From Granulosicoccus sp. (lineage in GTDB: Bacteria > Pseudomonadota > Gammaproteobacteria > Granulosicoccales > Granulosicoccaceae): a DNA stretch of 32,519 nucleotides. The notes below the pieces were generated by a model. The model was not told the origin of the DNA. It did not search any database and saw only the letters and a list, made by a program, of their open reading frames with translations. How positions within the stretch are numbered: the first letter of the stretch is position 1; each line of letters begins with the position of its first letter. Shown here piece by piece: positions 781 to 31,704 of the stretch. The translations under genes were made by a program, and so were the position numbers. Location of the stretch: assembly GCA_020627685.1 (NCBI GenBank), contig JAHDGK010000047.1:1-32519 (forward strand). The letters are read 5' to 3'.

Positions 781-792
781 TTCAGGATGCCA

Positions 793-1860
793 CTATTGTT
801 CTACAGGCACTAAAATTGTTTTTGTTGCTTCAAAAATTGCATGTATAGATTCGCCCTTCTGATATTTTTCATTCATTTCGGCATCTACCACGAATATATC
901 TCCAGCATCTGTATTGATCAGGTATTCCATGTGTCCACCTAAATACGTGCTGTGTTGAACTCTTCCGGCTAAAGAGTTGGGAGTATATGTATGGGTAAGC
1001 CTGATGTTCCGCGGTTGTATCGATAACTTCATGTCCTTAGAAATATGTTTTGCCGCATACGAGTCCAGTGTCGTAGAAGAGACTTTTACTACAGCTCTAT
1101 TTCCACTTGTCGATTCAATCTCGCAAGGAATAATATTGGCATCGCCGATGAAATCTGCGATGAACTCTGATTGTGGCTGCTCATAAAGTTCGGTCGGTGT
1201 GCCTTGCTGGGCTATCGCCCCATCCTTCATAACCACAATTTTGTCCGACACAGCCATGGCTTCTTCCTGATCATGTGTGACATAGACGGCAGATAGTCCA
1301 AGCGATTGCTGTATTTGCCTTATCTCTTCTCTGACGTGTCGTCTCAGTTTGGCATCGAGATTTGATAACGGTTCATCAAAGAGAAGAACATCTGGTTCCA
1401 ATATAACTGCTCGAGCAACAGCTACCCGCTGCTGCTGGCCACCAGACAATTCACTTGGCAGGCGATTCTCAAAACCAGTCAGTCCGACCATCTCCAGAGC
1501 ACGGAAGGCTTTCTCTTTTCTGGTTTTTTTCGGTGTTGAAGATACTGTCAGACCGTATGAGACGTTCTCCAGAACATTCATGTGTGGAAATAGCGCATAT
1601 GATTGAAACACCATCGCCACATTTCTGTAAGTGGCCGATTGGTGAGTTACATTTTCTTGTCCAATATAAATTTCTCCACCAGTTGCTTGTTCAAGGCCTG
1701 CAATAATACGTAGTGTTGTTGTTTTACCGCATCCGCTTGGTCCTAATAACGTGACGATTTCTCCCTCAGGTATTTCTAGGGACAGATTCTCAATGGCGGT
1801 TACGGTTCCATAACACTTCTTAATATTACTAAGGCTTACGCTTGCGTTTTCTGAGTTCAT
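793..1860 (-). CDS. ABC transporter ATP-binding protein (FbpC/PotA-type, with TOBE domain)
   Basis: This 355-residue protein is an importer ATPase that would sit on the cytoplasmic face of the membrane and power the adjacent fused permease. Visible motifs are Walker A GPSGCGKT (40-47), Q-loop Gln86, signature LSGGQ (138-142), Walker B VLLFDEP (158-164), D-loop and H-loop His196. The roughly 120 C-terminal residues match the position and length of a TOBE regulatory domain, usual in iron(III), spermidine and sugar-phosphate importers of this class. Its ATG overlaps the permease stop by 4 nt (1857-1860), indicating translational coupling. The HAD phosphatase follows 12 nt downstream. Family assignment is secure; the substrate is not determined by this subunit. 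Confidence 0.95.
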   Translation of the reverse strand: MNSENASVSLSNIKKCYGTVTAIENLSLEIPEGEIVTLLGPSGCGKTTTLRIIAGLEQATGGEIYIGQENVTHQSATYRNVAMVFQSYALFPHMNVLENVSYGLTVSSTPKKTRKEKAFRALEMVGLTGFENRLPSELSGGQQQRVAVARAVILEPDVLLFDEPLSNLDAKLRRHVREEIRQIQQSLGLSAVYVTHDQEEAMAVSDKIVVMKDGAIAQQGTPTELYEQPQSEFIADFIGDANIIPCEIESTSGNRAVVKVSSTTLDSYAAKHISKDMKLSIQPRNIRLTHTYTPNSLAGRVQHSTYLGGHMEYLINTDAGDIFVVDAEMNEKYQKGESIHAIFEATKTILVPVEQ

Positions 1861-4049: not shown

Positions 4050-4098
4050 GAGTAAAGGGAGATTTGCGAGCTGGCTCGTGAGAGATTTACGAGTAATA

Positions 4099-4122
4099 GT
4101 CGGCTGATTATTTTCAGCCGAC
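4099..4122 (-). other. intercistronic hairpin between binding-protein and permease genes
   Basis: A perfect 9-bp inverted repeat, GTCGGCTGA / TCAGCCGAC, with a 6-nt loop begins 13 nt after the binding-protein stop codon. There is no T-run after it on the minus strand, so it is unlikely to be a full terminator. Such hairpins after the binding-protein gene of ABC operons often protect the upstream mRNA or cause partial termination. That would give the usual excess of binding protein over membrane subunits. Confidence 0.6.
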
Positions 4123-4135
4123 CCAGATTTGCCAA

Positions 4136-5155
4136 TTAGTTTTTCGCGACGTTCTTTACGTCTCGATCCCAGCGCTTCAGCAGTCGTTCACGCGTTTCTG
4201 TCGAGCCATAGGTTGCGAAGTCGTAGTCGATCAGCTTGATTGAAGCGAGATCTGGTGATTCCGGTGCCACCGTCGCTTTGGAATTCGAAGGCACTTGATA
4301 AGACTCAACTTCAACGGAGCGCGATTGGACATCTGCATTTAGGGAGTACTCTACCCATTTTTTAGCAGCTTCAAGGTTCTTCGCCCCTTTGATTATACTC
4401 ACGGCACCCACTTCGTATCCGGTTCCCTCGCATGGGGCCACGATCTCTAATGGGAAACCACTTGAGGCTAACGTGACCATGTCGTGCATAAAGCCGATAG
4501 AGATAGTCGTTTCTCCTCGAGCGGCAGCCTTACTCGGAGCTGATCCAGATTTAGTATATTGGTTTACATTTTTACCGATCTCCGCCAAGAGGGACATGGC
4601 TTCATCTTCACCAAATAGTTGTACAAATGTAGCTAGCTCTGTGTAGGCGGTACCTGAACTATTAGGATTAGCCACTTGAATTTCTTTTGCATAGGAAACA
4701 TCAGCAAGGTCTTTCCAGCAGCTAGGTGCCTTTAATCCCTTTTCTGCTAGTAGCTCTCGATTGTATGCCACGCCTAATGCGCCGGCATAAATTCCTACGG
4801 TCTTACCCTCAGATATAGTCGACATATTTACAGCCCAGCCGAGTAAATCTGAGGTGTCGATACCAGATGCTTGAGTAAGATCTTCTGATGCTGCAATTAG
4901 GTGGGGGTCGCCAGTACCACCCCACCAAATATCAATTTTAGGGTTTGCCGCTTCTGCCCGGATCTGTGCCAAAGACTCTCCTGTACTTTTACGCACCATG
5001 GATACGTCAATTCCGGTTTGTTTTTCGAATCCTTTAGCCATTAAGTCGCACCATGGCTGTTCAGCGCTGCAGACTACGTTGAGTTTGTCAGCGGCGGTTG
5101 CATTTCCCCCAATTAAAGACAAACCAATGATTATGGTTCCTATTAGTTTTTTCAT
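4136..5155 (-). CDS. periplasmic substrate-binding protein of ABC transporter (family 1, FbpA/AfuA-like)
   Basis: This 339-residue exported protein has a clear Sec signal peptide (MKKLIGTIIIGLSLIGGNATA, probably cut before ADKLN). It has the two-lobed family-1 fold pattern: NVVCSAEQPWC at the start, an IDIWWGGTGDPHL segment, and YTKSGSAPSKAAARGE followed by TISIGFMHDM. The start at 5155 is chosen because it begins the signal peptide and has AAGGAA just upstream and GGAGG about 11 nt upstream; an earlier TTG at 5173 would add six residues. No adjacent Tyr-Tyr pair, the iron ligands of FbpA, is present. Together with the Ser/Gly-rich SGSAP segment this favours an anionic organic ligand over ferric ion (inference). 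Four Cys in the mature protein could form disulfides. It is the first gene of the operon. Confidence 0.92.
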   Translation of the reverse strand: MKKLIGTIIIGLSLIGGNATAADKLNVVCSAEQPWCDLMAKGFEKQTGIDVSMVRKSTGESLAQIRAEAANPKIDIWWGGTGDPHLIAASEDLTQASGIDTSDLLGWAVNMSTISEGKTVGIYAGALGVAYNRELLAEKGLKAPSCWKDLADVSYAKEIQVANPNSSGTAYTELATFVQLFGEDEAMSLLAEIGKNVNQYTKSGSAPSKAAARGETTISIGFMHDMVTLASSGFPLEIVAPCEGTGYEVGAVSIIKGAKNLEAAKKWVEYSLNADVQSRSVEVESYQVPSNSKATVAPESPDLASIKLIDYDFATYGSTETRERLLKRWDRDVKNVAKN

Positions 5156-5193
5156 GTTCCTTAATGCCTCCAATAATTTATAAACAGTGATGT

Positions 5194-5218
5194 CGGAACG
5201 ACTGCTTGCTAAGTTCCG
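5194..5218. promoter_or_regulatory. inverted repeat CGGAAC-N13-GTTCCG, candidate operator or leader hairpin
   Basis: Perfect 6-bp arms lie about 40-60 nt upstream of the binding-protein start codon and downstream of the candidate promoter at 5251-5280. They could be a half-site pair for the neighbouring response regulator, another repressor site, or a stem in the 5' UTR. No second copy was noticed in the window. Confidence 0.4.
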
Positions 5219-5250
5219 CCAAAAAATTATGAGGCGCTGAATTCGGTAAT

Positions 5251-5280
5251 TCTATAAATAGTATTTCATAAATATGACAA
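5251..5280 (-). promoter_or_regulatory. candidate sigma-70 promoter for the transporter operon
   Basis: On the minus strand a TTGTCA (-35, 5280-5275) and TATAGA (-10, 5256-5251) are separated by 18 nt in an AT-rich stretch, about 95 nt upstream of the binding-protein start codon. The rest of the 333-nt divergent spacer (5156-5488) serves both the transporter operon and the two-component genes. No equally clear plus-strand promoter is visible there. Confidence 0.45.
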
Positions 5281-5488
5281 AAATAGCTTGAACGAGGCGG
5301 ATTCGACTTACTGTGAAAGGTTGTGTTGCGAATGTTTCAATTATTACAAAATTTGTTTTGGAAATTATTAGAAAACAGGACACATGGACCACATCAGATA
5401 TTGCTAAACCGACCTTATCTGGTCAAGATACGCAAAGAGTTAGATATGCACCTATGTACTAAATGTAGAGGTTGAAAGGGTAGTCCTT

Positions 5489-6214
5489 ATGAGCACCAAA
5501 GCTCAAACAGTGGCAATTATTGATGACGATCCGTTGGTTCGCTCAACGTTGTCCGATTTACTTCAGGAAAACGGCTTTGAGTCCTTCGCTTTCTCTGACA
5601 GCGCATCGCTACTTAACTCATCTCACCGTTGCTTCGATATATATTTAGTCGACCTGCGTTTGGCGAATGAAAGCGGATTAGATATTGTCAGGAATATTGT
5701 TGTTCGTCATAAGGCTCCAGTAATTATGCTCAGTGGTTATGGTGATGAAATCGACAAAGCTATAGGGTTAGAGGCGGGTGCTGATGACTATATTTCCAAG
5801 CCTTTTAACTCGCGTGAACTCATTGCACGCGTACGTGCCCTTTTGCGGCGATGCCACAACCAGTCCGAATTATTACAAAGTGTCGTGGCCGTCGAGGGTG
5901 GTGGGGTTAGTTTTGGTGGCTTTACAGTTGATCGTGGGAACCGCCGAGTTTACAACTCGTTGAATAAAGAAGTGTCCCTGACCAATGCAGAATTCCGGCT
6001 ATTGGAATATATGTTGATCAACCACGATAGAATTATTGATAGGGGAGAGCTAGTAGATCACTTGGGAGGCGATTTGTCTCAGTATGTGGATCGAACCATC
6101 GATGTGATGATTCTCCGGTTGCGTGGAAAGATTGAAATCTCACCCTCAAAGCCAGTTCATCTGCAAACGCGCCGTGGTCGTGGCTATGTATTCGTGTTAA
6201 ATCCACAGACATAA
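5489..6214 (+). CDS. OmpR/PhoB-family DNA-binding response regulator (TorR-like)
   Basis: This 241-residue protein has an N-terminal receiver domain (about 7-120) with acidic pocket Asp12-Asp14, phosphoacceptor Asp55 in YLVDLRL, Ser82 and Lys104 in SKPF. A C-terminal winged-helix domain (about 145-238) ends in the typical TIDVMILRLRGKIE...RRGRGYVF pattern. It would be phosphorylated by the kinase encoded 14 nt downstream and act as a transcription regulator, most likely of the divergent ABC/HAD operon (inference from position). Only a weak AAAGGG ribosome site precedes the ATG. All catalytic residues are present. Confidence 0.95.
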   Translation: MSTKAQTVAIIDDDPLVRSTLSDLLQENGFESFAFSDSASLLNSSHRCFDIYLVDLRLANESGLDIVRNIVVRHKAPVIMLSGYGDEIDKAIGLEAGADDYISKPFNSRELIARVRALLRRCHNQSELLQSVVAVEGGGVSFGGFTVDRGNRRVYNSLNKEVSLTNAEFRLLEYMLINHDRIIDRGELVDHLGGDLSQYVDRTIDVMILRLRGKIEISPSKPVHLQTRRGRGYVFVLNPQT

Positions 6215-6228
6215 CGACTGCATCTGCG

Positions 6229-8784
6229 ATGTCACTTTGGAAACACAAGTATCACGATAGTATTCAGGCCAGGCTACTGGTTGCCGTCGCGTTGCTTACT
6301 TTGTCTGCATTGGCTATTGGTCTCACTTCCTGGTATTGGTTGTCGCACTCCAATCGAATTTTGGAAGATCTACACACCGGTACAATCCAACAGGTTAATC
6401 GATCACATGAGCTAACCAAGCAAAGTGCGGTTTTTACTGCTTCTGCCACGTTTCTTTTAAACTTAAAATCGCCCTATCTTGTTGAGACAGAAGGCTCGAA
6501 GTTGTTAAAGTCTATTGATGATGCTATTGCTTTGTGGGAGCAAGGTTCGTTAGCAAGTGTTGATGGTGGGTCTGCTCCGCAACCGATACTATCTCAGCTG
6601 CGGCGAATGCGAAGCCATATTTCTTTGCTCATATCATCTGTAAGAGATATATCGAATTTCGAGGACGCATCGAGAATTATTACTCAAAAGCTTGCCTCAT
6701 CTGAAAGGCAACTTACGGATCGTTTGCCAAAATCTAGGTCTCCATCCCACCGAGAGGCGATAAGACAGGTACAGATTTCCACGCAATTGCTGATTACGGC
6801 ATCTCAGGAGACAAGTCTGCTTAGCTTGGGTGAATATAGGAGGCGCATTGAAAAAAATTATGCGAGCTTTCCCTTTGACGAAGGACACGTAGAGGAAACA
6901 GTCGCACTCCAAGAGATCTATAGGCTTGCAATCGATGATCAAGGCTTATTTCAGGTTAGAAGGAAGTTGTTGCGGAGCAATATCGAGGCGCGTAGAGCGC
7001 TGAGTGGTATTAGTACTAGCGCTAATCAACTAAATATTCTCGTGCTTGATCTGATCGAGCGCTCGGAAGCAGAGATATCTAAACAACGTGAGACCACCAG
7101 CAAGAATATCCGGGCGGCGTTGGGATTTGTCGTTTTGTTGGGGGTTGGCAGTATTGTTATGGCGCTGTTGGCCGCGTTTTATATATCGGGTTATGTGGTT
7201 AAGAATCTTAATACAGTGACTCAAGCAATGAGCGCACTGGCAAGGAGTGATTTTACCCAGCGCAACGATTCTGAAAATGTACCGTTGGATGAGATCGGAA
7301 GACTCAAAGAAGCGTTCGAAGTGTTCCGTGCTAACGCCTTTAAACTAAAGCGCCTCAATGTGCAGCTAGAACAGAAAACCGCGTTATTTGAATCGACATT
7401 TAATAATATAAACGACGGTGTCGCCATCACAGATAGTAGAAGTCGAGTTCTCGCTTGCAATTCAAGGCTTAACTATGTGCTGAGTTTTTTATCCAGCGAG
7501 CTTGCTGTTTCCACAGGTGGCGTGTTAGACGATCGCACTTTGGTATTTCCAGGCTCGACTAATCAGTTTGATGTATCTAATGAGTCTCAATCTTATAGAG
7601 AGGTTCGGAATGAGCTTGGTCAGAGCATAGAGATTAGAACTAGCAAGCTTCCAGATGGCGGAAAGGTTTGGCTGTTTTCTGACACAACGGAGCGTAGGCG
7701 CATCGAGGAACGTTTAAGCCATTTTCAGCGCCTTGAAAGTTTGGGTCAGCTTACGGGTGAGGTTGCACACGATTTCAATAATGTGCTGAGTGCTATAAAA
7801 ACAGCAGTTCAACTTGCGATCTCTAAAGACGAAACTACCGTCAGTGATGCTGAATTGTATCGAATTGATGATGCTGTTGATATTGGTACTGCACTCACAC
7901 AGCGTTTGTTGGCTTTTGCGAAAAAACAGAATTTAGACCCAACGAGAATTGAACTCAATGAGTTAGTCTCTGGTGTTTCAGAGCTTATATCGTTAAGTAT
8001 TGGTCAAAGAATACGACTGAATGTAATACACTCAGATCAAGACATTTATGTTCATATTGATCGTATCCAGTTAGAGAGTGCGCTCTTAAATTTATGCATC
8101 AACAGCGCGAATGCTACGACTGGTGAAGGTACGATAGAGATATCTATCTTTAAAGATGAGGAGCAAAGTGCGGTTATAACTGTTAAGGACTTTGGATGTG
8201 GAATGTCTGAAGCATCACTTGCTCATGCGATAGAGCCTTTTTATTCAACTAATAGAGGTCGAAATGGTAGTGGTTTAGGTTTGAGTATTGTCTATGGTTT
8301 CCTAAAGCAATCGGGTGGTGATCTTCTTATAGAGAGCGAAGAGGGGAGGGGGACTACTGTTAAGTTAGTATTTGCTCGGTATTCTTCAGAGTCGATCTCT
8401 TCTTCGGAGCCGCTGGATATTTCTGGGCATATTCATTCATCGGTTTTATTGGTAGAGGATGATCGAGAGTCCCGTTGTCGAGCAGGCGAATATCTTGATG
8501 AATTGGGAATAAAGTACAGCGATGTGCCAGCTTATCCAAATGCAATGCAGATGCTGAGAAGTGATCAGTTTTTTAGCATTCTGTTTACCGATCTTCATCT
8601 AGGGGGTGAACTGACTGGTTGGGATCTTGCGCGTTACTGCTTAAAGCGTCGTTTGGTTGAAAAAATAGTTATTACTTCAGGAAGAAGTCAAGAGTTGACA
8701 AACCCACCTGAAGATTTAATAGGACATATAGAACTGCTGCCTAAGCCCTATACTAGGGATGAGGTGCAAGCCGTTTTAAAGTAG
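6229..8784 (+). CDS. hybrid sensor histidine kinase (TorS-like layout, HAMP-PAS-HisKA-HATPase-REC)
   Basis: This 851-residue inner-membrane kinase has TM1 at about 14-37, a long helical periplasmic sensor region (about 38-292) and TM2 at about 294-320. HAMP (about 321-375) and a PAS-like segment (about 384-480) follow. HisKA has His514 in GEVAHDFNN. HATPase_c carries N-box LCINSANAT, G1 DFGCGMS and G2 GSGLGLSIVYG. A C-terminal receiver contains Asp788 and Lys839. There is no C-terminal Hpt domain, unlike TorS/ArcB. The receiver may therefore modulate kinase activity directly, or a separate Hpt protein may exist elsewhere. It forms an operon with the response-regulator gene (14-nt gap). The periplasmic region probably senses the transported solute, directly or through the binding protein (inference). 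Confidence 0.93.
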   Translation: MSLWKHKYHDSIQARLLVAVALLTLSALAIGLTSWYWLSHSNRILEDLHTGTIQQVNRSHELTKQSAVFTASATFLLNLKSPYLVETEGSKLLKSIDDAIALWEQGSLASVDGGSAPQPILSQLRRMRSHISLLISSVRDISNFEDASRIITQKLASSERQLTDRLPKSRSPSHREAIRQVQISTQLLITASQETSLLSLGEYRRRIEKNYASFPFDEGHVEETVALQEIYRLAIDDQGLFQVRRKLLRSNIEARRALSGISTSANQLNILVLDLIERSEAEISKQRETTSKNIRAALGFVVLLGVGSIVMALLAAFYISGYVVKNLNTVTQAMSALARSDFTQRNDSENVPLDEIGRLKEAFEVFRANAFKLKRLNVQLEQKTALFESTFNNINDGVAITDSRSRVLACNSRLNYVLSFLSSELAVSTGGVLDDRTLVFPGSTNQFDVSNESQSYREVRNELGQSIEIRTSKLPDGGKVWLFSDTTERRRIEERLSHFQRLESLGQLTGEVAHDFNNVLSAIKTAVQLAISKDETTVSDAELYRIDDAVDIGTALTQRLLAFAKKQNLDPTRIELNELVSGVSELISLSIGQRIRLNVIHSDQDIYVHIDRIQLESALLNLCINSANATTGEGTIEISIFKDEEQSAVITVKDFGCGMSEASLAHAIEPFYSTNRGRNGSGLGLSIVYGFLKQSGGDLLIESEEGRGTTVKLVFARYSSESISSSEPLDISGHIHSSVLLVEDDRESRCRAGEYLDELGIKYSDVPAYPNAMQMLRSDQFFSILFTDLHLGGELTGWDLARYCLKRRLVEKIVITSGRSQELTNPPEDLIGHIELLPKPYTRDEVQAVLK

Positions 8785-14114: not shown

Positions 14115-14993
14115 TTAGGCCACTTCGCTGCTTTGATTAACAGCATCGTTCTGAGCAGTAGAGCCGCCTTGAGCAGCATCCAGCCACCAAGGGTAAGGCG
14201 CTTTAGCCAAATCTAAATAGAACGTTGAATAAAAGAGGCCGTAGTCTTCGGAAGGCTTGGAACCTGCACATAACTGGAATCTGAAATCGGTCATTTGCAG
14301 TGTTTCAAGGTCAGCCCACAGTTGGGGATCGTTGATTGATCCACCAGCTACAACTAGATGAAAAACATACTGACTACCTGCGGAGTATCCGATAGCACGA
14401 AGTTTTTCAGACTCAAAGTGGCTTAGTACAGTGGTTGTGTTCTCTGTTTTGATATTGCAGGCATAAGCGGTAATTGGCTGAGTACTGCCTTGCAGTGCTT
14501 TAACCGTCATGCGATTAGGATCAAGCTTGACACGTTTGGCTTTCGGCATAGAAAACGCCGCCATATCCAAAAGAGTCGAGATGCTGAAATAGGGGCTGTC
14601 TGGGTTTAGACGATGTGGCTCTGACAGTGCGCGAGCTGCGCCAGGCATGCCGGCTTGCTTTAAAAGCATGCTCATTCCCAATACCAACTTAGGTGAGTGC
14701 ACAACCCGTTTTTCAAGCAGGGGCTGCACCTGAACTTTCCGACGATCTTCTATCAGTGTCAGTTTGTTCTTCTGCGCGAATTTCTGCAGGTAGTTAAGGC
14801 TGCGTGGTTGCAACTCAGCCATATCGGAAGGAACAAACAGCGCGTTTTTGTTTTCAACACGCTTACACGTTAAAACCGTTTTTACCCGAGACTCTGCTGG
14901 GTCGGAGCGCTGCATACTGCCCACCGCCGCTGAGTTAACCCAAGAGCTCTTACGTTTGTTGAGATCTTCTGAGTTTGTCGCTTGATTGTTCAT
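14115..14993 (-). CDS. hypothetical protein, 292 residues
   Basis: I do not recognise the family. The protein has no signal peptide or membrane segment and starts with a polar, low-complexity tail (MNNQATNSEDLNKRKSSW). A mixed alpha/beta body runs from about residue 35 to 270 (LTCKRVENKNALFVPSDMAE..., ending YSTFYLDLAKAPYPWWLDA), followed by a Gln/Ser/Asn-rich tail. The polar tails and soluble core suggest a cytosolic protein. An AAGGTG ribosome site sits about 10 nt before the ATG. It is a single-gene unit between two hairpins. Codon use looks like its neighbours and the frame is intact over 879 nt, so it is a real gene. Confidence 0.75.
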   Translation of the reverse strand: MNNQATNSEDLNKRKSSWVNSAAVGSMQRSDPAESRVKTVLTCKRVENKNALFVPSDMAELQPRSLNYLQKFAQKNKLTLIEDRRKVQVQPLLEKRVVHSPKLVLGMSMLLKQAGMPGAARALSEPHRLNPDSPYFSISTLLDMAAFSMPKAKRVKLDPNRMTVKALQGSTQPITAYACNIKTENTTTVLSHFESEKLRAIGYSAGSQYVFHLVVAGGSINDPQLWADLETLQMTDFRFQLCAGSKPSEDYGLFYSTFYLDLAKAPYPWWLDAAQGGSTAQNDAVNQSSEVA

Positions 14994-15135
14994 CGCTTAC
15001 TACACCTTAAAACCTGTGATTAAACGGCAGCCGTTTTGGAGACGGTTGCGTTGTCTAATTCAGGTAAAGCGAGAAGCGCGCCACATTTGGTAAAGATCAG
15101 CTAACGGTTATCCGGGCGTCTTAGTAAGGGTTTAA

Positions 15136-15159
15136 TTTGCGTCAACAAAATAACGCAAA
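15136..15159 (-). terminator. hairpin downstream of the BolA-family gene
   Basis: TTTGCGT / ACGCAAA arms with a 10-nt loop start 13 nt past the stop codon at 15172. The sequence after it on the minus strand is AT-rich (AATTAAACC) but has no T-run. It is a plausible weak terminator. Confidence 0.4.
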
Positions 15160-15171
15160 GTGCGCGAAACG

Positions 15172-15408
15172 TTAGCTCTCAGCAGACTCGCTTTTCGTCA
15201 GAGCTTTGATCGTCAATGCGTGGATGGCGCCGGATTTAATATGCTCATCCAAAACCGCATAGACCATTTTGTGTCTGTTTAAGGTCGATAGTCCTTCGAA
15301 CGCATCGCTGACTACGCGTGCCTCGAACTTACTGCCATCACCTGTGATTTCAGCTTGCGCGCCATCAATAGCACTTTCCACCAAATCGCTGAAATAATCC
15401 ATCCGCAT
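15172..15408 (-). CDS. BolA/IbaG-family protein
   Basis: This 78-residue protein starts MRMDYFSDLVESAI, with GAGGTG 6 nt upstream. An open frame continues 5' but the extra 42 codons cross a terminator and do not match the family. Features are the GDGSKFEARVVSDAFEGL strand region and the helix-strand ending NRHKMVYAVLDEHIKSGAIHALTIKAL, characteristic of BolA proteins. The GDGSxF segment is closest to IbaG. BolA-type proteins pair with monothiol glutaredoxins to bind [2Fe-2S] clusters, with His in NRHK and near the C-terminus as candidate ligands. In enterobacteria ibaG sits beside mla/murA genes; here it stands alone. Confidence 0.88.
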   Translation of the reverse strand: MRMDYFSDLVESAIDGAQAEITGDGSKFEARVVSDAFEGLSTLNRHKMVYAVLDEHIKSGAIHALTIKALTKSESAES

Positions 15409-15456
15409 GTCGTTCACCTCGTTTGCGGTCGGGAGTATAACTCTTTTGAGTTTTTT

Positions 15457-15484
15457 AAAAAAAATGGGCCTGACTGGCAGGCCC
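15457..15484 (-). terminator. intrinsic terminator (minus strand)
   Basis: A 7-bp GC-rich stem GGGCCTG / CAGGCCC with a 5-nt loop is followed on the minus strand by ATTTTTTTT. It lies 137 nt beyond the lipoprotein stop (15621) and 49 nt before the BolA-family start (15408). It either ends the lipoprotein transcript or acts as an attenuator in the BolA leader. A second stem (15501-15530) sits just upstream of it. Confidence 0.8.
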
Positions 15485-15620
15485 AATTTGGGGGGTGAGA
15501 ACGTGACACCAACTATCGATTGGGGCACGTGCAAAGACTTTAGTTGGTGCTATAGATAAGTCAAATAAATTATTGAATTAAAAGACTAAATAGTGACAAC
15601 AATGGCGCATAATGTGGTGA

Positions 15621-15965
15621 TTACTGCGGGTTCTCATAAAAGATATATGACGTAGAGTAATCACTGAATTCGAAATAGACTTTTTTCTCGCCGCTATCGA
15701 CGCTGCCATTTAAATTTGCGTCCAAAACACCGTAGCCGAATCGATAGGGACGATCAGCTCCACTGTTGGTGCCGGAGGCGGTCGTCAGCTTGTCTACCTT
15801 CATGAAGCGCTTCACGAGCTTTTCGCCAGCGTAGATTTCGATGATGCCGTCTGTGCCAGTCCAATTTTGAATTGAGCGTCCAATATTGTTCTGAGATTCC
15901 TGTGTACAAGAGGCAAGTAGTAACGCTCCTGCCATGATGCCCAGTAATTTGATGGGGTTGCGCAT
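15621..15965 (-). CDS. small hypothetical lipoprotein
   Basis: This 114-residue protein starts MRNPIKLLGIMAGALLLASC. The lipobox LLASC puts the acylated Cys at residue 20, with Thr-Gln after it, so Lol sorting to the outer membrane is expected. The mature part reads as a small beta-rich domain (GIIEIYAGEKLVKRFMKVDKL...GYGVLDANLNG...KKVYFEFSDYSTSYIFYENP). The family is not recognised. An AGGAT ribosome site lies about 10 nt upstream. It stands as a single gene with an intrinsic terminator 137 nt downstream. Confidence 0.85.
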   Translation of the reverse strand: MRNPIKLLGIMAGALLLASCTQESQNNIGRSIQNWTGTDGIIEIYAGEKLVKRFMKVDKLTTASGTNSGADRPYRFGYGVLDANLNGSVDSGEKKVYFEFSDYSTSYIFYENPQ

Positions 15966-16097
15966 TGAGTTCGTATCCTTATGAGTGGTTTAAATTCGGC
16001 CTGTGCAGAGCAATTATCACACTTACCGTGCAAAGATCTGCGTACGTCCGGCAATAACAAGCGATAATATAGGGCTCGATTGCAAGGTAACAAGCAT

Positions 16098-16313
16098 ATG
16101 TCAGTACAGAAGCAGTTCGGCATTATTGTAAAAATGCCTGAAAACGACCCTATGGCAGCCCCGCATTTACTCGGTGATGACTGGGCAGGGGAGCGATGGT
16201 TCGAAACTGCTGAAGAGCGTGACAGAGCCTACGACGGCATGTTGCACAACCCTGGCAACTACCGTAAGGGAGATCGTCCCTCCATACAGCTAAGCAAGAT
16301 AGATCCTAACTAG
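16098..16313 (+). CDS. small conserved-looking hypothetical protein, 71 residues
   Basis: The ATG at 16098 is chosen because AAGGT lies about 9 nt upstream; an in-frame TTG at 16080 would overlap that site. The product starts MSVQKQFGIIVKMPENDPM and continues with GDDWAGERWFETAEERDRAYDGM, then a basic stretch and QLSKIDPN. It is charged, soluble, with no signal or membrane segment. The helix WFETAEERDRAYDGM resembles short proteins found beside housekeeping genes in gammaproteobacteria, but I cannot name the family. It is divergent from the lipoprotein gene and convergent with the phosphatase gene. Confidence 0.7.
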   Translation: MSVQKQFGIIVKMPENDPMAAPHLLGDDWAGERWFETAEERDRAYDGMLHNPGNYRKGDRPSIQLSKIDPN

Positions 16314-16339
16314 CGACGTACCTTGGGCCGTTTTTGGGT

Positions 16340-16926: not shown

Positions 16927-17676
16927 TTATAGTTTCTTATCGCCTATAACCACTGCGCCGTCAGCTTCGCGTAAATACCCGACACCCTCGCTTGTTACGA
17001 CCTTGTACCAGTCATTGGCCAGATACTCCAGTTCAAACAAGGTACCGGGTGCGGCGCGCATGATCAGGTTCGAGTAGTTTGCCGGTTGTTGATAAATTCC
17101 TTTTGGGTAGTAGGTGCCGACGATTTTGACTTTAGCGTTTTCCTGGTTTTTCGTTGTCTGGGTGCGGCTTAAGTTCTTATCTATCGGTGTTAAATCAAAT
17201 GAGCGATTGGTTGATACCGTTTGTATAACTACTGAGCCCTGTTTACGAATTTTCGGAACTTCGGTGTGTTTGGCACTCGGTTTTGTTGCCTGTCTTTGAA
17301 TGGCTAAGGATGTCGATGCGACACGAGTGCCTGCTTGAGTGGCCTTCTTGGCAAGCGCCGGATTGTTTTGGGGCAGCAGCGTAGGCGGAATCTTTATGAT
17401 CGAGCCAATGCGTATTTTATGAGGATCTGAAATGCGATTGTATTTAGCAATCTCCTGCCAATGAGTCGCATTGCCTGTGTATCGAAGGGCGATATCGCCA
17501 AGACGCTCGTGAGGCCCTACGGTATGCACAACTTCCTGTGATTTTGTCAGCTGCAATGCCGGGACTTCTGCCGGCACCTCTATTTCGGGCGGAGCTTGGT
17601 TTGTTGCACACCCTTGAATAGCTGTAATTGCGGTGAGCAAAAATCCCAGTGTCAGTATCGAGTTATTGTTTTTCAT
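16927..17676 (-). CDS. LysM-domain lipoprotein with C-terminal SH3-like domain (short paralog)
   Basis: This 249-residue envelope protein has a signal peptide and lipobox IQGC (Cys23). One LysM domain follows at about 50-98 (VHTVGPHERLGDIALRYTGNATHWQEIAKYN...IRIGSIIKIPPTLL), then a basic Thr/Gln-rich linker. A C-terminal SH3-like domain occupies about 190-245 (GTYYPKGIYQQPANYSNLIMRAAPGT...VVTSEGVGYLREADG). LysM binds N-acetylglucosamine in peptidoglycan, so the protein likely bridges outer membrane and wall. The start at 17676 gives a compact signal peptide; an ATG at 17694 adds six residues. It shares all three modules with the next gene upstream (18055-19527), so the two are paralogs. A 9-bp inverted repeat lies about 30 nt upstream. 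Confidence 0.9.
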   Translation of the reverse strand: MKNNNSILTLGFLLTAITAIQGCATNQAPPEIEVPAEVPALQLTKSQEVVHTVGPHERLGDIALRYTGNATHWQEIAKYNRISDPHKIRIGSIIKIPPTLLPQNNPALAKKATQAGTRVASTSLAIQRQATKPSAKHTEVPKIRKQGSVVIQTVSTNRSFDLTPIDKNLSRTQTTKNQENAKVKIVGTYYPKGIYQQPANYSNLIMRAAPGTLFELEYLANDWYKVVTSEGVGYLREADGAVVIGDKKL

Positions 17677-17703
17677 TTTTATTGTTCTCGGCATCTGGTC
17701 TCA

Positions 17704-18054: not shown

Positions 18055-19527
18055 CTACTTGATATCTCGCTTATGGACGTAGCCTGTGCCTTTTTCAGTT
18101 TCAACTTCAAACCAGTTACCCATGGCTTTAGAAACCTTTAGCGATGTACCCGGGGACACTCGCATCAACAAGCTGGATGAGAAATCGGCATCGTTGTAGA
18201 TCGCTTTAGGGTAATAAGTGCCGCTGACCATAATGTTGTTCAAGTCAGGTTCAATGGACGCAAGGCTTTGCACATCTTGAGCGTCAGCCGCGATGGAGAT
18301 CGGCTTGTTTTCTGGATCTGAAAAGTTTGCTTCGACGATAGTGATTGGCTGAGTTTCATCCGCTAGCAGTTGAGTGTTACTCAAAGATGAGGCTTCACTG
18401 AGCATCTCACTGCTGGCCTTAATGGCTTTGTTATCCGCTGCTGCAACAACTTCTGCAGAAGCTGCTGGTTTTTGAATAACTTTGGCCGGGGTGTTGCTGG
18501 CTAGCGCATCATCAGACTTAACAATACTGTCCGGAACCATAATGACTTGTCCGGCACGAACCTGAACAGCCTGCTTTTCTGAAAAGTTATTATGACCGGC
18601 GATTATCTTCCAGTTAGTCGCATCGCCTGTTGTCCGTTTAGCAAAGTCCCATAAAGTTTCGCTAGGGTTCAACTTAATAGCCTTGCCGGAAATTTCAGCT
18701 GTCGGAATTTCCAACCGTTGAGTCGGTGCTAAAGCAATGGCCTGCGTGTTGATTTTGATGGGGTTAGCAGCAACTTCAACACTTTCTGTTTCGACGATCG
18801 TGGCCGCTAGCTCAGGCTTAAGCATTTTGGTCGGAATAGCCAGCTTCTGGCCAGCGCGCACGCCTGCGTTTTGATTCAGATTATTGACGTCTGCCAGGAC
18901 ATGCCAATTTGTCGCATCACCGGTGGTCTTCTTGGCGATTTCCCAGAGCGTTTCATTCTGAGCAACGGTGTGGATGAATTCAGGCTCATCGGGAGTTGCC
19001 GCAGATAATTCAACTGCGTCTGCTGTCTCGTCCAGCAGGAATGGATCTGCTTCGGCCAGTTCCGTGGTATCTCCATCTTCCAGCATCGGATCAACAAGGA
19101 GAGGCTCTTCTGCTGATTCGTCGAAAATGACTAGCTCTTCGGCTGTTGGCGCCTCAAAGACGTCTTCGAAGTTCGCAGTTGCATTTTGTATGGCTACTGG
19201 GCTCAGTGTGTCCTCTGGCAGCAGTGCATCATCTTCGAGCATGGCTTGGTCGATTTCATCCATAAGGAAGTCTTCTGACATCTCGCCATCCGCGACTACC
19301 TTTGCGTCATCACCGTCGACGCTGTCAGAGAAGCCCAGCATGTACATGCTGACGTCCCAAGCGTGTTTGCCAACCTTGGCAGTCGCTTCACCGGCGGTCA
19401 GGATGCCAGCGCCAATCGGGCTCAAATCAACGCCATCCATTTTTGGTGCTGAGGCACAGCCGCTTAAGGACAGGACGGTAGCTGCCAGCAGGCTTTTTTT
19501 GAAAATCTTTGGGTTGGGGTTGGGCAT
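18055..19527 (-). CDS. LysM-domain lipoprotein with two LysM domains and C-terminal SH3-like domain (long paralog)
   Basis: This 490-residue protein starts MPNPNPKIFKKSLLAATVLS with lipobox LSGC (Cys24). An open frame 27 codons longer lacks a signal-peptide start. After the lipid anchor comes a very acidic, Ala/Glu/Asp-rich region (about 68-180). Two LysM domains follow at about 183-233 and 281-333, both containing the same TTGDATNW core, and then an Ala/Ser-rich linker. The C-terminal SH3-like domain at about 430-490 begins SGTYYPKAIYNDADFSSSLL. It probably spans from outer membrane to peptidoglycan. The SH3-like domain and GTYYPK(A/G)IY motif are shared with the downstream paralog. A GNRA-loop stem (19592-19607) lies in its promoter region, and an intrinsic terminator follows. 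Confidence 0.9.
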   Translation of the reverse strand: MPNPNPKIFKKSLLAATVLSLSGCASAPKMDGVDLSPIGAGILTAGEATAKVGKHAWDVSMYMLGFSDSVDGDDAKVVADGEMSEDFLMDEIDQAMLEDDALLPEDTLSPVAIQNATANFEDVFEAPTAEELVIFDESAEEPLLVDPMLEDGDTTELAEADPFLLDETADAVELSAATPDEPEFIHTVAQNETLWEIAKKTTGDATNWHVLADVNNLNQNAGVRAGQKLAIPTKMLKPELAATIVETESVEVAANPIKINTQAIALAPTQRLEIPTAEISGKAIKLNPSETLWDFAKRTTGDATNWKIIAGHNNFSEKQAVQVRAGQVIMVPDSIVKSDDALASNTPAKVIQKPAASAEVVAAADNKAIKASSEMLSEASSLSNTQLLADETQPITIVEANFSDPENKPISIAADAQDVQSLASIEPDLNNIMVSGTYYPKAIYNDADFSSSLLMRVSPGTSLKVSKAMGNWFEVETEKGTGYVHKRDIK

Positions 19528-19591
19528 GTGTTCTCTCACCATCAGATTTGAATAGGGGCAGACGATCGATAGGTGGTAAGAACGCTTCGGA

Positions 19592-19607
19592 TGCAATGAA
19601 AATTGCA
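19592..19607. other. short stem with GAAA loop upstream of the long LysM gene
   Basis: TGCAAT / ATTGCA arms with a GAAA tetraloop lie about 65 nt before the start codon at 19527. They may be an operator dyad or RNA stem. The 312-nt gap 19528-19839 between this gene and glnS otherwise shows only AT-rich sequence, with no clear terminator after glnS. Confidence 0.3.
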
Positions 19608-19839
19608 CTTAGGCGTCACCACTTCGACGAATGTGACACTAAATTTAATAGTCGCTGAATCGGTGTCCGTCAAACCTATCTGCGGTTTGAAGCAAAACTT
19701 TTTTGAACACGGATGTGTAAGCGCTAAATCTGAACGCGTTGTGTCGTCTTAGTTACAAGCGTGAGAGATAAGAAAAATCGATAAATACCGCACAAATTGC
19801 GCTCTTCCATGAGCATAATTTTTATATTGTGCTAGCGGA

Positions 19840-26751: not shown

Positions 26752-29172
26752 ATGATTAGTCCTAACCGATTATTGCTAACAGGGTTGACGATGGCAGCGA
26801 TAGGGGGAGTAGTTTTCTCCCTATCGGCAAACGCCTCTCCAATCGTTGACGGATCCACCATCTCTTGGCCAGACGATGGATACTACCAAGTTCAACGTGC
26901 AAATGATTTTGTCACCGAGTGTGAGGGTACGCCGCTGTGTGTGGTTGACGCGGGCGAATACATTGTTATTAACCACACAACTGGACAGCGGTTTGAAAAC
27001 GTAGTCGTAACCGGTGCGTCGAGTGGAGGCGATTCGGATTATCAGTTAGTAGGTAATACGTTTACATTCCCGGAAGGTAACTGGTTTCAGGTGCAGGAAA
27101 CCTCTACCTACACATCAGTGTGTAACGGGGAAAGTAGCTGTGACGTTGAATCGGGGCAGTACGTAGTCATAAACCATACGTCCGGACAACGCTATAACAA
27201 TGTCCTGGTTGGAATGTCTGCCGAGCTGAGTACGCCGGTGGGTGGCACGCAGCCGGTAGTAGACGGCAACATCATTACCTGGGCTGATGATGGTTGGTAT
27301 CAAGTTCAAAATAGTACTGACTACACAACGCTATGTGAAGGTGGACGTGAGTGTGAGGTACCTGCCGGCACCTATCATGTGATCAATCTAAGTTCAGGCA
27401 TGCGTTATGAGAACATCATTGTCGGTAGCGTAGAGCCGGATCCTTCAGAGCCCGGGGCAGAGCCTATGCCTGTACCAACGTCGGGTGAATTTTATCCTTC
27501 TATTCTCTCTATTTCAGATACCACCGTACTTGTGCCCGAGGTGCCCGCTGATGCATCTATTCCAGAGAATGCTCAACAGGTGGGCGATGTAAACGGGGAT
27601 GGATTGATCGATTTAATGATCATACTAGAGGGGGAGCAAACCTATCAGCGAAGCGCCGCTGTCTTATTTGCCAATGCACTAAATAGCTACCCTGATCTGC
27701 CACTGAATGAGAATCTAATTACCGATACCAGTGAGGTGTTAACGCATGGTTTCATCATCAATGATGTCGGTACAGACATTGGAGGTGTAGGTGACATTAA
27801 TAACGACGGATTCGATGATTTGTCGTTGCTGTCCAGTGGCTACTTTGCAGTACCAACAAGATTCGTTTTGGCAGGCGCTGCAGACTTTTCTGCTCGTATT
27901 GGTACTAGCGATATCGCGAGTTTGCAGGTGTTAGTGAATCTGCCCGTCAATGCCACCTTGGTTAATGCAGGCGATATTAGCGGCGATGGCATTGAGGATC
28001 TTTTTGTCACAGCGCCCAATGATGTGCGCGGTGCAGTTATCTACGGCGCGAATAATCTCGATATGACGTACAGCACTCGTCAGGCGCTTCAAGACGAATC
28101 GGTTTTCCCGGGGTGTGCAGACAACTTTTGTAGTATGGCTGCCATAGGCGATTTTGACGGCGATGGTATGGCCGATATTTACGGCCGCAGGTTCGGCGCT
28201 AGAGGGTGTGGATTCGCTGGATTTGCAGTGGTGCTTTATGGCCAAGCTGGAGGTATTGAGCAAGCAAATGCTATTTATGAATACGCGCCTGAAGATGTGA
28301 CTCGCATTGTGGATGAGCCTGGAGCTGATTGTTTTTCAGGCTCCATTATGGATCGGCTTTCTGGCAATGACATTGATGGGGACGGTGCAACCGATCTATT
28401 TCTGGGCTCGCGTTTAGAGGGCGATGTGGGTAATTTAGTGTTTGGTACGAGTGACCGTCGACGGGAATTTCTTTCCACTGCTGATTTGGACGGGCAGCTG
28501 GGCCTTAGCATTTCGGGGATCGATGACATTGAAGTATTCGATGGCAATAATGATGGGTTCGATGACATCGTGTTTGATAATGTCAGTAGTTACCTTGGGC
28601 ATGCGAGGAACATCAGTTCTGTTGATGGGCCTGTTGTTCGTCGATCTCCAACCTCTTTTGTTATTAACGTGGCTAATTCACTGACTTCTGGTGGGGAACG
28701 ACTGTCCATCAGTATTAATAATGTACCGGCCGGTGAGTTTGACGTTGGTACGGTTGATATTACGATAGATAATTTTATTGGCACTGCAGAAGCTGTGGTT
28801 GATGTTGTTGTACTTTCCTCGGACGATGAAACGTTAACAACACTTCGCCGGGTAGTCCCTGAATTTTTTACGCAAGAGCGTGTCACAGCCGATTTGCTCG
28901 CACCGAGATTGGTTGAGCTAACGTTAAATGCGAATACTTTAATTACGTACTATTCGCATTATTTAGTTTGGCGTAATGGTGTACCTATCGGGCGCTCTAT
29001 TAACGGTGCGGATAATTTTATTGATAACAATGTTGAGTTGGGCAGAACCTACACTTATTACATAACACCTGATTATCTTTATGACGATTCATTTGATGTG
29101 TCTCTAATGCGCCAAGGCCCTTTGTTGCAACGACAAAGTAATTCTGTGAGTGTGACTACGCCGGCGCCCTAG
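26752..29172 (+). CDS. secreted FG-GAP repeat protein with three N-terminal Cys-pair modules
   Basis: This 806-residue exported protein has a signal peptide cut near SANA/SP (residue 28). Three copies of a ~55-residue module (about 32-86, 98-153, 168-224) follow the pattern W/F..DGYYQVQ...(Y)T..C.G...C.V..G.Y.VINH.TGQR..N..V, each with one Cys pair. A Pro/Glu-rich linker leads to six Ca-binding-type FG-GAP/integrin-like repeats at about 276, 342, 404, 464, 538 and 596 (GDVNGDGLIDL, GDINNDGFDDL, GDISGDGIEDL and similar). The C-terminal ~90 residues resemble a fibronectin type III strand pattern (YLVWRNGVPIG...GRTYTYYITP). A surface or extracellular binding role is likely; the ligand is unknown. 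An AAGGAG ribosome site is 6 nt upstream. No C-terminal sorting signal was recognised. Confidence 0.9.
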   Translation: MISPNRLLLTGLTMAAIGGVVFSLSANASPIVDGSTISWPDDGYYQVQRANDFVTECEGTPLCVVDAGEYIVINHTTGQRFENVVVTGASSGGDSDYQLVGNTFTFPEGNWFQVQETSTYTSVCNGESSCDVESGQYVVINHTSGQRYNNVLVGMSAELSTPVGGTQPVVDGNIITWADDGWYQVQNSTDYTTLCEGGRECEVPAGTYHVINLSSGMRYENIIVGSVEPDPSEPGAEPMPVPTSGEFYPSILSISDTTVLVPEVPADASIPENAQQVGDVNGDGLIDLMIILEGEQTYQRSAAVLFANALNSYPDLPLNENLITDTSEVLTHGFIINDVGTDIGGVGDINNDGFDDLSLLSSGYFAVPTRFVLAGAADFSARIGTSDIASLQVLVNLPVNATLVNAGDISGDGIEDLFVTAPNDVRGAVIYGANNLDMTYSTRQALQDESVFPGCADNFCSMAAIGDFDGDGMADIYGRRFGARGCGFAGFAVVLYGQAGGIEQANAIYEYAPEDVTRIVDEPGADCFSGSIMDRLSGNDIDGDGATDLFLGSRLEGDVGNLVFGTSDRRREFLSTADLDGQLGLSISGIDDIEVFDGNNDGFDDIVFDNVSSYLGHARNISSVDGPVVRRSPTSFVINVANSLTSGGERLSISINNVPAGEFDVGTVDITIDNFIGTAEAVVDVVVLSSDDETLTTLRRVVPEFFTQERVTADLLAPRLVELTLNANTLITYYSHYLVWRNGVPIGRSINGADNFIDNNVELGRTYTYYITPDYLYDDSFDVSLMRQGPLLQRQSNSVSVTTPAP

Positions 29173-29416: not shown

Positions 29417-30664
29417 ATGAATTTTTCCATCTTAATCCGGCTCGTAGTATTGCTGGCGCTTCTGAGCCCAAATGCTTATGCGCAAGAAGGGGGCGTCGAT
29501 TTCTCTGGTTTATACGAGCGCATCTATCAGATTCAAGTGGTCTCTAAAGATGCCGGCAGCAAATCATCAATAGGGTCTGGATTCCAAGTCAGCAGTGAAG
29601 GGCACATCGTAACTAACTATCACGTCGTGTCAGCGTTTGTGAACGCGCCCAATCAATACAACATCAAGTATGCAACCTATGACGGTCAGTTCGGATTTCT
29701 AGAGTTGTTGGATTTTGACATCGTGAGTGATATTGCTGTGTTGAAGCATCCATCACCTGCCGCTGAGGCTTTCGAACTTTCATCCTCAATACCGGCAAAA
29801 GGGGAGACGGTCTATGCGCTGGGAAATCCTGGCGATTGGGGTATCGTTATGGTGCCGGGACCTACTAATGGTTTGGTCGAGCATAGTTACGAAGATAGGG
29901 TGTTGTTTTCCGGTAGCTTGAATTCCGGTATGAGTGGTGGCCCTTCTTTAAGTCATGACGGGAAAGTTATAGGTGTGAACGTGGCTACAGCAGGGAGTCA
30001 GTTGAGCTTTCTAGTGCCAGTGGCAAAGGTTCATGCATTGTTAGAAAAGCAACGACAGTTGTCTCAGGAATCGTTTAACGTCGAGATTGCAGCGCAAATA
30101 CTTGCCTGGCAACAAGTCAGAGTTCAGGAGCTAATTGATATGCCCTGGAAATCAGAAGAATTCAACGGCAAAGATTTGTTTGGTGCATTGCGTAACGATT
30201 TTCAGTGTTGGGGCAGTACTAATGAATCAGATACTGAGAGAAAATTGGAGTTAGTCCGAAAGTACTGTAGCACCGGTGATGATGTTTATATTGATTCGGG
30301 TATTAACTCGGGACAAATAAGCTTTTCATTCAGACACCTTAAACCCGTTAAGGTGAACGACATGCAGTTTTCAAAAATGCAGTCGCTATCGATGTACTCT
30401 GAAAACGATCTTGACTATGAGCATGCGACTAATTTTGCATGCGAGACAGATTTTATAGAGGCCGAAGAATCAACCGCTGATAGTTATCATAGAGTGGTGA
30501 CTTGTATTCGGGCTTATAAAAAGCTTAAGGGTCTGTACGATTCCGTTGTTATGGTAATGAGCAACTCCGGCTCTGAAGTATTCAAAAAGCAGTTAGCCAT
30601 GTCAGGCTTAAAGAAGGATCACATACTCCAAATGAATCGTCGATTCGTGGAGCGATCACTATGA
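29417..30664 (+). CDS. exported trypsin-like serine protease (S1C/DegP-like) with novel C-terminal domain
   Basis: This 415-residue protein has a signal peptide (MNFSILIRLVVLLALLSPNAYA). The chymotrypsin-fold domain (about 30-215) carries an intact triad: His69 in TNYHVVS, Asp105 in VSDIAVL and Ser173 in SGMSGGPSL. Unlike DegP there is no PDZ domain. The C-terminal ~200 residues are a charged domain with several Cys (CWGSTN, YCSTG, ACETD, VTCIRAYK) that I do not recognise. The start at 29417 is chosen because it opens the signal peptide; a GTG at 29306 would place 37 residues before it. Its stop overlaps the FHA gene by 4 nt. The gap 29173-29416 holds no further gene. Confidence 0.88.
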   Translation: MNFSILIRLVVLLALLSPNAYAQEGGVDFSGLYERIYQIQVVSKDAGSKSSIGSGFQVSSEGHIVTNYHVVSAFVNAPNQYNIKYATYDGQFGFLELLDFDIVSDIAVLKHPSPAAEAFELSSSIPAKGETVYALGNPGDWGIVMVPGPTNGLVEHSYEDRVLFSGSLNSGMSGGPSLSHDGKVIGVNVATAGSQLSFLVPVAKVHALLEKQRQLSQESFNVEIAAQILAWQQVRVQELIDMPWKSEEFNGKDLFGALRNDFQCWGSTNESDTERKLELVRKYCSTGDDVYIDSGINSGQISFSFRHLKPVKVNDMQFSKMQSLSMYSENDLDYEHATNFACETDFIEAEESTADSYHRVVTCIRAYKKLKGLYDSVVMVMSNSGSEVFKKQLAMSGLKKDHILQMNRRFVERSL

Positions 30665-31704
30665 ACTATGTAGTGACGGTGCAGACGGGCTCGGTTCGGC
30701 AAATTGAGAAGGTTGAATTTACTGCTGAGAAGCCAATTGTTGTCGGCAGAGCATTTGATAGTGATGTGGTTGTGGACGACGACTATATGGATGCACGCCA
30801 TGTAGAGTTTGCTCTCGACGATGAGGGTAGGGTTTTAGTACGCGATCTTGATACTCAAAACGGCACACTCATAGCGAAGAAAAACATTGGCGAAGCTCGA
30901 GTCTATGATTTTCAGTCTGAAATTTTTAGTGGTGAGTCAACGATAACCTTACACAAGTTGGACGCCGAGGTAGCACCCGCTCTTAAGCGAGAGACTGTGC
31001 ATGCCATAGAGAGGAAATTTGGTTCGGTTTTATGGACGCTCATTGCAACTGTAGTTGCAAGCGCAGGCATAGTTTTGTCGGTGACGCTGGTTGAATTCGA
31101 TGAAGTGAACAAACAGCTGCTAGTGGATAGTTTCCTCATGGTGGGTGTGGCCGTATTGTGTTGGTGCTTGTTTGCGGGTGTGATAGGGAAGCTATTCAGA
31201 CACAAGAGCTACCTCAAACTACATTGGAGTTTGTCTTGTGTCGTGTTCGGTGTCAGTGCCGTGTTTAGTTTGCTGGCTGATGTGCTGAGCTTTAATTTAG
31301 ATTCTTCATTCTGGCATGTAGTGTTGGGGTATATCTCTGTCGGTTTAGCCGTCTGGTTGCTTATCTATGGCACGCTTTCATTGAGCACGCGGCTTAGGAT
31401 GAACAAGAAGATCATCGCCTCGACTCTCATGGCTGTCTTTCCAGCTGTTGTCGGCTCCGGCGTCCCCATGCTGGCTGAAGACCACGAGAATTGGACCGAG
31501 CTGGCCTATGTGGCTCGAGTCAATCAGCCGCCTGCGCTGCTTTTCAGACAGCCAACTTCTCTGGTCGCACACATAGAAAATACCGAGGCGCTGTTCACTC
31601 AGCTGGACCGTGAGGTCGAATTGAGTGGCGTGGGAGATTCTAATTACTCGCCTGCAGAGCCTGAGCCCCCCTCAGAGATTGTGGTTTCGGAGTCAGATCA
31701 GTAG
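30661..31704 (+). CDS. FHA-domain protein with five predicted membrane segments
   Basis: This 347-residue protein has an N-terminal FHA domain (about 5-100): Gly29-Arg30 in VVGRAFDSD, His47 in MDARHVEF and Asn67-Gly68 in DTQNGTL. The Ser of the usual SxxH phosphothreonine motif is Asp44. Five hydrophobic segments follow at about 121-146, 152-176, 188-212, 216-240 and 248-268, then an ~80-residue acidic, Pro-rich tail. With FHA in the cytoplasm, five crossings put the tail in the periplasm, where the coupled protease would be. The 4-nt overlap with the protease gene indicates co-production. No Ser/Thr kinase is in the window. Function is unknown; signal relay across the membrane is an inference. 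Confidence 0.85.
   Translation: MNYVVTVQTGSVRQIEKVEFTAEKPIVVGRAFDSDVVVDDDYMDARHVEFALDDEGRVLVRDLDTQNGTLIAKKNIGEARVYDFQSEIFSGESTITLHKLDAEVAPALKRETVHAIERKFGSVLWTLIATVVASAGIVLSVTLVEFDEVNKQLLVDSFLMVGVAVLCWCLFAGVIGKLFRHKSYLKLHWSLSCVVFGVSAVFSLLADVLSFNLDSSFWHVVLGYISVGLAVWLLIYGTLSLSTRLRMNKKIIASTLMAVFPAVVGSGVPMLAEDHENWTELAYVARVNQPPALLFRQPTSLVAHIENTEALFTQLDREVELSGVGDSNYSPAEPEPPSEIVVSESDQ

Follow-up and report, generated by a model that had tools for sequence, protein, structure and literature searches.

Two intact open reading frames near the end of a 32,519-nucleotide stretch of Granulosicoccus sp. DNA (the window) encode an exported serine protease (415 aa) and a membrane protein with an FHA domain (347 aa), and the stop codon of the first gene overlaps the start codon of the second. 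This raises the question of whether the two proteins form a functional unit and, if so, whether a signal would pass through it into the cell or out of it. A previous reading of the sequence alone had noted the 4-nt overlap, which we found at the same position as a shared ATGA, and had proposed a coupled pair in which the FHA domain reports inside. Here we followed this proposal by profile searches and by comparing the locus with related genomes.

The gene pair and its surroundings

The features of the pair are listed in Table 1. Upstream of it lie a biotin ligase gene and an FG-GAP repeat gene, both assigned by Pfam, as well as a gene that we take from its sequence to be coaX-like; a tRNA-Thr gene follows downstream. 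The signal in a promoter and terminator scan was within the spread of shuffled sequences.

Table 1 Features of the protease–FHA gene pair in the window
Feature	Coordinates	Strand	Basis
HtrA/DegS-type serine protease, exported, with four-Cys C-terminal domain and without PDZ	29417..30664	+	Trypsin_2
Signal peptide, apparent cleavage after AYA	29417..29482	+	by eye; N-termini of relatives hydrophobic
Protease domain, aa 53-187; His69, Asp105, Ser173	29573..29977	+	Pfam Trypsin_2
C-terminal domain, aa 214-415; Cys264, Cys284, Cys342, Cys363	30056..30661	+	alignment, Cys counts
ATGA start/stop overlap of protease and partner genes	30661..30664	+	sequence
FHA-5TM-tail membrane protein	30661..31704	+	Pfam, hydropathy
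FHA domain, aa 26-80, predicted cytosolic; Asp44 at the Ser position, Arg30 and Asn67 retained	30736..30900	+	
Five transmembrane segments, aa 125-269	31033..31467	+	hydropathy
C-terminal tail, aa 272-347, acidic, predicted periplasmic, PP motif	31474..31701	+	

The FG-GAP gene (26752-29172), just upstream of the pair, encodes an exported protein with, by eye, three N-terminal copies of a unit of ~65 aa that contains paired Cys residues. These units had no Pfam match, and the gene belonged to no gene group common to other loci. Elsewhere in the window, two neighbouring and mutually related LysM genes lie on the minus strand (16927-17694 and 18055-19608); both products look lipoprotein-like by eye, and the longer one has an SH3 end. 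A minus-strand ORF of 292 aa (14115-14993) had no Pfam match at E<=0.001, and about 1.3 kb adjoining it (14994-16339) contain no ORF of 130 aa or more. In the region 154-8784, genes for a HAD-like phosphatase, an ABC ATPase, a permease and a binding protein share one strand, and the opposite strand carries a response regulator gene and a hybrid histidine kinase gene. By eye, the region resembles an uptake locus for phosphonate or iron that has a two-component system of its own.

An HtrA/DegS-type protease with a four-cysteine domain

The ATG start of the protease was chosen from the signal peptide and from an alignment with 29 relatives. The protein matched Pfam Trypsin_2 over residues 53-187 with an E value of 2.2e-22. 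It had been called trypsin-like in the sequence-only reading, which is right for the fold; as a class, HtrA/DegS-type is more exact, as the nearest named families are HtrA proteases (best NCBIfam match degP_htrA_DO, all below the NCBIfam cut-offs) and the PDB sequence matches are HTRA1, DegP and DegS. The catalytic triad His69-Asp105-Ser173 was invariant in 44 of 44 aligned pairs, and so were Met172, which precedes the catalytic serine, and Asp375.

The same invariance (44/44) was found for the four cysteines of the C-terminal domain. Among 55 full-length proteases, 54 had exactly four Cys in their last 215 residues (G575 has five), and in 29 of 30 aligned rows these four were the only Cys beyond the first 35 residues, the exception being L106, whose start is uncertain. 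Since the four cysteines are invariant and the protein is exported, they could form two disulfides, and we conclude that the domain is probably disulfide-bonded. The description of this part as an unrecognised Cys-containing domain still stands: residues from about 214 to 415 had no Pfam match above cut-off, and no match to PDB sequences was obtained up to an E value of 10. A match to Astro_p19 at residues 155-243 (E 0.006) was below the Pfam cut-off of that family. A PDZ domain was absent from all 30 members of the protease family searched (E<=0.01).

A membrane partner with an FHA domain, five transmembrane segments and a tail

The FHA domain of the partner was identified by PF00498 (E 7.6e-9, 36.3 bits against a cut-off of 20.7, residues 26-80). 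At E<=0.01, this profile matched 28 of 29 partners. Five hydrophobic peaks follow at residues 125-143, 158-176, 191-209, 221-239 and 251-269. In the family mean they reach hydropathy values of 1.58 to 1.90, whereas the next peak reaches 0.15. All five segments had a hydropathy of at least 1.0 in 43 of 44 partners, of at least 1.2 in 39 and of at least 1.5 in 23. The loops differ in charge, with mean K+R values of 1.55 and 2.41 for loops 2-3 and 4-5 versus 0.68 and 0.23 for loops 1-2 and 3-4, and the tail is acidic on average (D+E 9.4 versus K+R 4.8). Taken together, positive-inside loops and an acidic tail predict a cytosolic FHA domain and a periplasmic tail, the latter on the side of the protease. 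The topology drawn earlier, with FHA inside and the acidic tail outside, is thus what loop charges and hydropathy predict.

The tail has a PP motif common to many relatives and is poorly conserved, with a mean pairwise identity of 18%. An alternative explanation is that the five-TM protein is a transporter, a channel or an enzyme which the protease matures or quality-controls. Protease and partner do occur one to one, and the five-TM body is kept where the FHA domain has been lost (see below). However, in 29 aligned rows the TM-plus-tail region had no invariant column and none that reached 90% conservation, unlike a typical enzyme or transporter; a search of the five-TM region against PDB sequences gave nothing useful (best E 0.33), and no Pfam family outside FHA was common to more than two of 29 partners. 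We consider this explanation very unlikely.

The FHA domain itself has kept part of its phosphopeptide site. Arg30 is present in 41 of 44 partners, Asn67 in 42 and His47 in 40, whereas at the Ser position of the phosphate pocket 12 partners have Ser, 11 have Asp, 10 Cys, nine Ala and one Glu. The Asp44 found in the window should weaken phosphate binding. In Agrobacterium Fha, passages of PMC3953482 report that single mutants of the equivalent Arg and Ser reduced secretion and that the double mutant abolished it. Since the single mutants had only a reducing effect, a pocket with Arg alone, without Ser, may by analogy still work weakly.

These data bear on a second alternative, according to which the partner is a constitutive tether or scaffold without signalling that does no more than position the protease at the inner membrane. 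Its FHA-like domain would bind proteins of the cytosol independently of phosphate, presumably as the corresponding domains of the T3SS ring proteins YscD and PrgH do. Of 29 partners, 28 matched the Yop-YscD_cpl profile at E<=0.01, although the window partner was below the cut-off of this profile (25.8 versus 33.2 bits). The low retention of the pocket Ser and the dispensability of FHA in one family (f149, see below) point in the same direction. On the other hand, the phosphopeptide-site residues Arg30 and Asn67 are nearly always kept, and the domain decays where canonical kinases are absent. On balance, the tether explanation appears rather doubtful to us.

Protease and partner form a conserved two-gene module

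In every genome with a readable downstream gene (54 of 54), the protease gene was directly followed by the gene for the five-TM partner. G146, G191 and G347, in which the downstream side is lost at a contig end, were left out of this count, although in G347 an overlapping FHA gene can still be followed for roughly its first 100 codons. L084 and L061 (a Chromatiales bacterium from Bugula neritina) are the same contig and were counted once. All 54 partners matched the five-TM profile, the worst with an E value of about 7e-9, 29 of them being themselves rows of that profile.

The pair is patchily distributed. Full-length relatives of the protease (E<=1e-60) were present in 14 of 143 relatives searched and, within the family of the window, in eight of 48 genomes. 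A partner match always lay just downstream of the protease, at E<=2e-12 in 13 of these 14 genomes and at 4.9e-5 in G121; in the remaining genomes of the set FHA matches were only weak and located elsewhere. The class-wide sample had the protease in 25 of 369 genomes, again patchily. With 31 fetched stretches and the window, 32 genomes were compared, and in 29 of 29 readable cases the downstream ORF overlapped the protease gene by 1-16 bases. The phylum sample (398 genomes) had 19 genomes with the protease, five of them outside the class, and all 15 genomes that were new in this sample had the partner, with an overlap of 10-28 bases. Finally, the pair was present in 12 of 12 genomes of f149, a family with small genomes: the 10 newly read ones all had the partner, overlapping in eight and 30-36 bases downstream in two.

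The two proteins were also searched for independently of each other. In the same 369 genomes, the profile of the C-terminal domain alone (E<=1e-4) found 24 and the five-TM-plus-tail profile alone (E<=1e-6) found 22. All 22 were among the 24, and in the other two (G191 and G347) the protease is at the contig end. Each of these genomes had one match per profile, with up to eight candidates scored per genome.

No third conserved gene was widely common in the stretches compared from the first 32 genomes. Based on a crude gene call, the protease recurred in 16 families and the partner in 14, followed by ABC-transporter ATPases in seven, which are common everywhere, and then by a few genes in three families each. 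Since only protease and partner recur widely, we conclude that they form a conserved two-gene module. The neighbourhood is conserved, as the proposal of a coupled pair had implied.

In a mirror-tree comparison of distance matrices, the C-terminal domain followed FHA somewhat more closely (0.54) than it did the tail (0.46) or the TM region (0.44), and so the comparison does not favour the tail as the contact. AlphaFold models made for two sequences (window and L061) had mean pLDDT values of 33.6 and 47.2, were unusable and gave no contact model.

The FHA domain has decayed in a family without canonical kinases

The sequence-only reading had pointed out that no kinase gene is nearby. Indeed, the window has no Ser/Thr kinase gene: the three PF00069 matches above cut-off in the source genome are on contigs 12, 45 and 91, and a fourth, below cut-off, is on contig 107, while the window is contig 58. 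A kinase gene beside the pair was rejected as a rule, as the strict kinase motif was found in only two of 47 loci, at 7.4 kb (L097) and 3.2 kb (L178) from the pair. In L178 (G575), the Ser/Thr kinase gene lies downstream at 11372, with the protease ending at 8187, and is the nearest in the 47 loci. A gene group that looks kinase-like by eye occurs in the fetched stretches of L097, L102 and L103, not adjacent to the pair.

At the level of whole genomes, the PF00069 kinase profile (E<=1e-15) matched 42 of 44 pair-bearing genomes, and also 23 of 23 pair-negative relatives. All 42 kinase-bearing pair genomes keep the FHA domain. The two kinase-negative genomes both belong to f149: the partner in G195 has no FHA, and the FHA in G306 lacks Arg30 and Asn67. 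In f149 as a whole, none of 12 genomes had a kinase at this threshold; five had weak PF00069 matches (2.8e-14 to 1.5e-10), one of which lies beside a presumably phosphatase-like gene, and another presumably resembles a lanthipeptide synthetase (labels by eye).

The FHA domain of the partner is missing in six of the 12 f149 genomes (G195, G794, G797, G798, G799 and G800), its Arg is changed in four (G306, G792, G795 and G796) and kept in two (G791 and G793). Only four of the 12 had an FHA domain anywhere in the genome (Pfam, E<=1e-4), and yet all 12 keep the four-Cys protease and a partner that matches the five-TM profile. In the partners of L187 and L188 (G799 and G798), a charged, Lys/Asn-rich N-terminal stretch replaces FHA, and five TM segments and the tail remain. 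Five of the 12 genomes are less than 90% complete. Arg30 was thus kept in 41 of 42 kinase-bearing genomes versus two of 12 f149 genomes, for which Fisher's test gives 3e-8, a value that overstates the case because f149 is a single clade with one evolutionary history, and the tree inside it does not separate independent FHA losses. Among the kinase-bearing genomes, G247 has an FHA without the Arg, and in G081, G310 and G405 the NG of FHA is changed to NP.

These losses do not support the view that the system exists for FHA to report inside, since six f149 genomes without FHA retain protease, five TM segments and tail. They also count against a third alternative, along the lines of the sequence-only proposal: DegS/RseA-like outside-in proteolysis, in which the protease would sense periplasmic stress and cleave the tail, and FHA would report this inside. 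The prediction that protease and tail are on the same side and the invariant catalytic triad fit this explanation. Nevertheless, the FHA domain, which would be its output, is dispensable, the pair has no conserved third gene next to it, and the tail is poorly conserved. We regard it as unlikely.

A proposed mode of action

Protease and membrane body were never seen apart, and we therefore consider them the core of the system. As this core persists without FHA in f149, FHA is unlikely to be its only output; its decay in the family that lacks canonical kinases is what would be expected of an input domain. From these patterns, FHA looks like an optional phospho-input that is accessory to the protease and its membrane partner.

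The explanation that we favour, and to which we would give an even chance, is a two-protein, membrane-gated periplasmic protease that is adjusted by FHA from the cytosol in most lineages. The first gene would encode an HtrA/DegS-type protease that is secreted to the periplasm and has the four-Cys domain in place of PDZ. The partner would hold and gate this protease at the inner membrane by means of its five-TM body and periplasmic tail. In most lineages, Ser/Thr kinases would pass a phosphothreonine (or related) signal to the cytosolic FHA domain, and periplasmic proteolysis would thereby be adjusted in the inside-to-outside direction. Protease activity, physical contact, gating and the direction of the signal are what we infer from the comparisons above. 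A more specific version is possible but tentative: cytosolic Ser/Thr kinases would set the activity of a dedicated periplasmic protease through the five-TM FHA protein as an inside-out phospho-switch, with phosphothreonine signalling reaching across the inner membrane to envelope proteolysis, and in one lineage the core would have outlived kinase loss by shedding FHA.

With the pair, envelope biology gains a widespread, single-copy system of two genes that has no name yet, together with a family of four-Cys domains for which sequence searches gave no solved relative. Provided that the FHA input is real, the pair would offer a route from cytosolic Ser/Thr phosphorylation to proteolysis beyond the inner membrane. 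Convenient genetic systems are offered by family f140: in the five genomes checked of eight bearing the pair (G186, G628, G711, G713 and G729), the FHA of the pair is the only one found in the genome (PF00498, E<=1e-4), and each has one to three kinases. Elsewhere, FHA matches per genome numbered four (G000) or two (G247 and G081).

Comparison with known systems

A role in anti-phage defence was not supported, as neither protein had a whole-protein PADLOC match. Residues 38-210 of the protease matched the last part of RT-Protease_XI, matches to PDC-M35A and LmuA were weak, and the partner had none. No relative was found on plasmids at E<=1e-20 or in phages at E<=1e-10; six loci on viral contigs match only the protease part, within residues 3-237. 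Trypco-type conflict systems were set aside because of their different organisation, as outlined in passages of PMC7159879. NP_811686.1 of Bacteroides thetaiotaomicron likewise brings FHA and trypsin-fold domains together, but as a single polypeptide with two FHA domains (FHA-FHA-Tryp), and the passage of PMC2605481 that describes it mentions no membrane partner. Among the papers listed by narrow word searches of open-access PMC it is the closest mention, and none of those papers described such a pair, which within this literature appears undescribed, in line with the first reading, which had recognised no described system of this form.

The T3SS ring proteins YscD and PrgH have an FHA-like cytosolic domain followed by a TM segment and a periplasmic part. 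They differ from the partner in having one TM segment and a large periplasmic domain, in contrast to five segments and a short tail. Fha of the T6SS shares with the partner an N-terminal FHA and an association with the membrane: passages of PMC3953482 describe it as tied to a membrane complex and report mutation of the Arg and Ser of its pThr motif. The difference is that the pocket Ser is mostly not kept in the pair. Furthermore, since no conserved neighbours accompany the pair, it is not part of a T6SS locus.

DegS is a membrane-held HtrA protease and serves as a working likeness to the pair. With DegS, AlgW and DegP, the protease of the pair shares the family, the predicted periplasmic location and an intact triad. 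It differs from them in having the four-Cys domain instead of PDZ, a separate membrane partner and, in the window protein, no lasting membrane anchor, as its signal peptide appears cleavable by eye. HtrA proteases have Asn before the catalytic Ser, whereas this position is Met in all 44 aligned proteases of the pair, and the HtrA/Do model TIGR02037 gave 59.7 bits with the window protease, far from its cut-off of 416.2. MarP of Mycobacterium is the other likeness, as a periplasmic HtrA-like protease held by TM helices; according to passages of PMC4992679, it combines membrane helices with a periplasmic trypsin-fold protease and has a disulfide, and its tethering is needed. In MarP, however, four TM helices and the protease form one polypeptide, whereas in the pair five TM segments are encoded by a separate gene, with FHA inside. 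Where MarP has four N-terminal helices, the protease of the window carries a signal peptide alone, and it scored 51.5 bits with NF033740 (MarP), against a cut-off of 250. By analogy, the pair functionally resembles MarP and DegS but lacks defining features of both.
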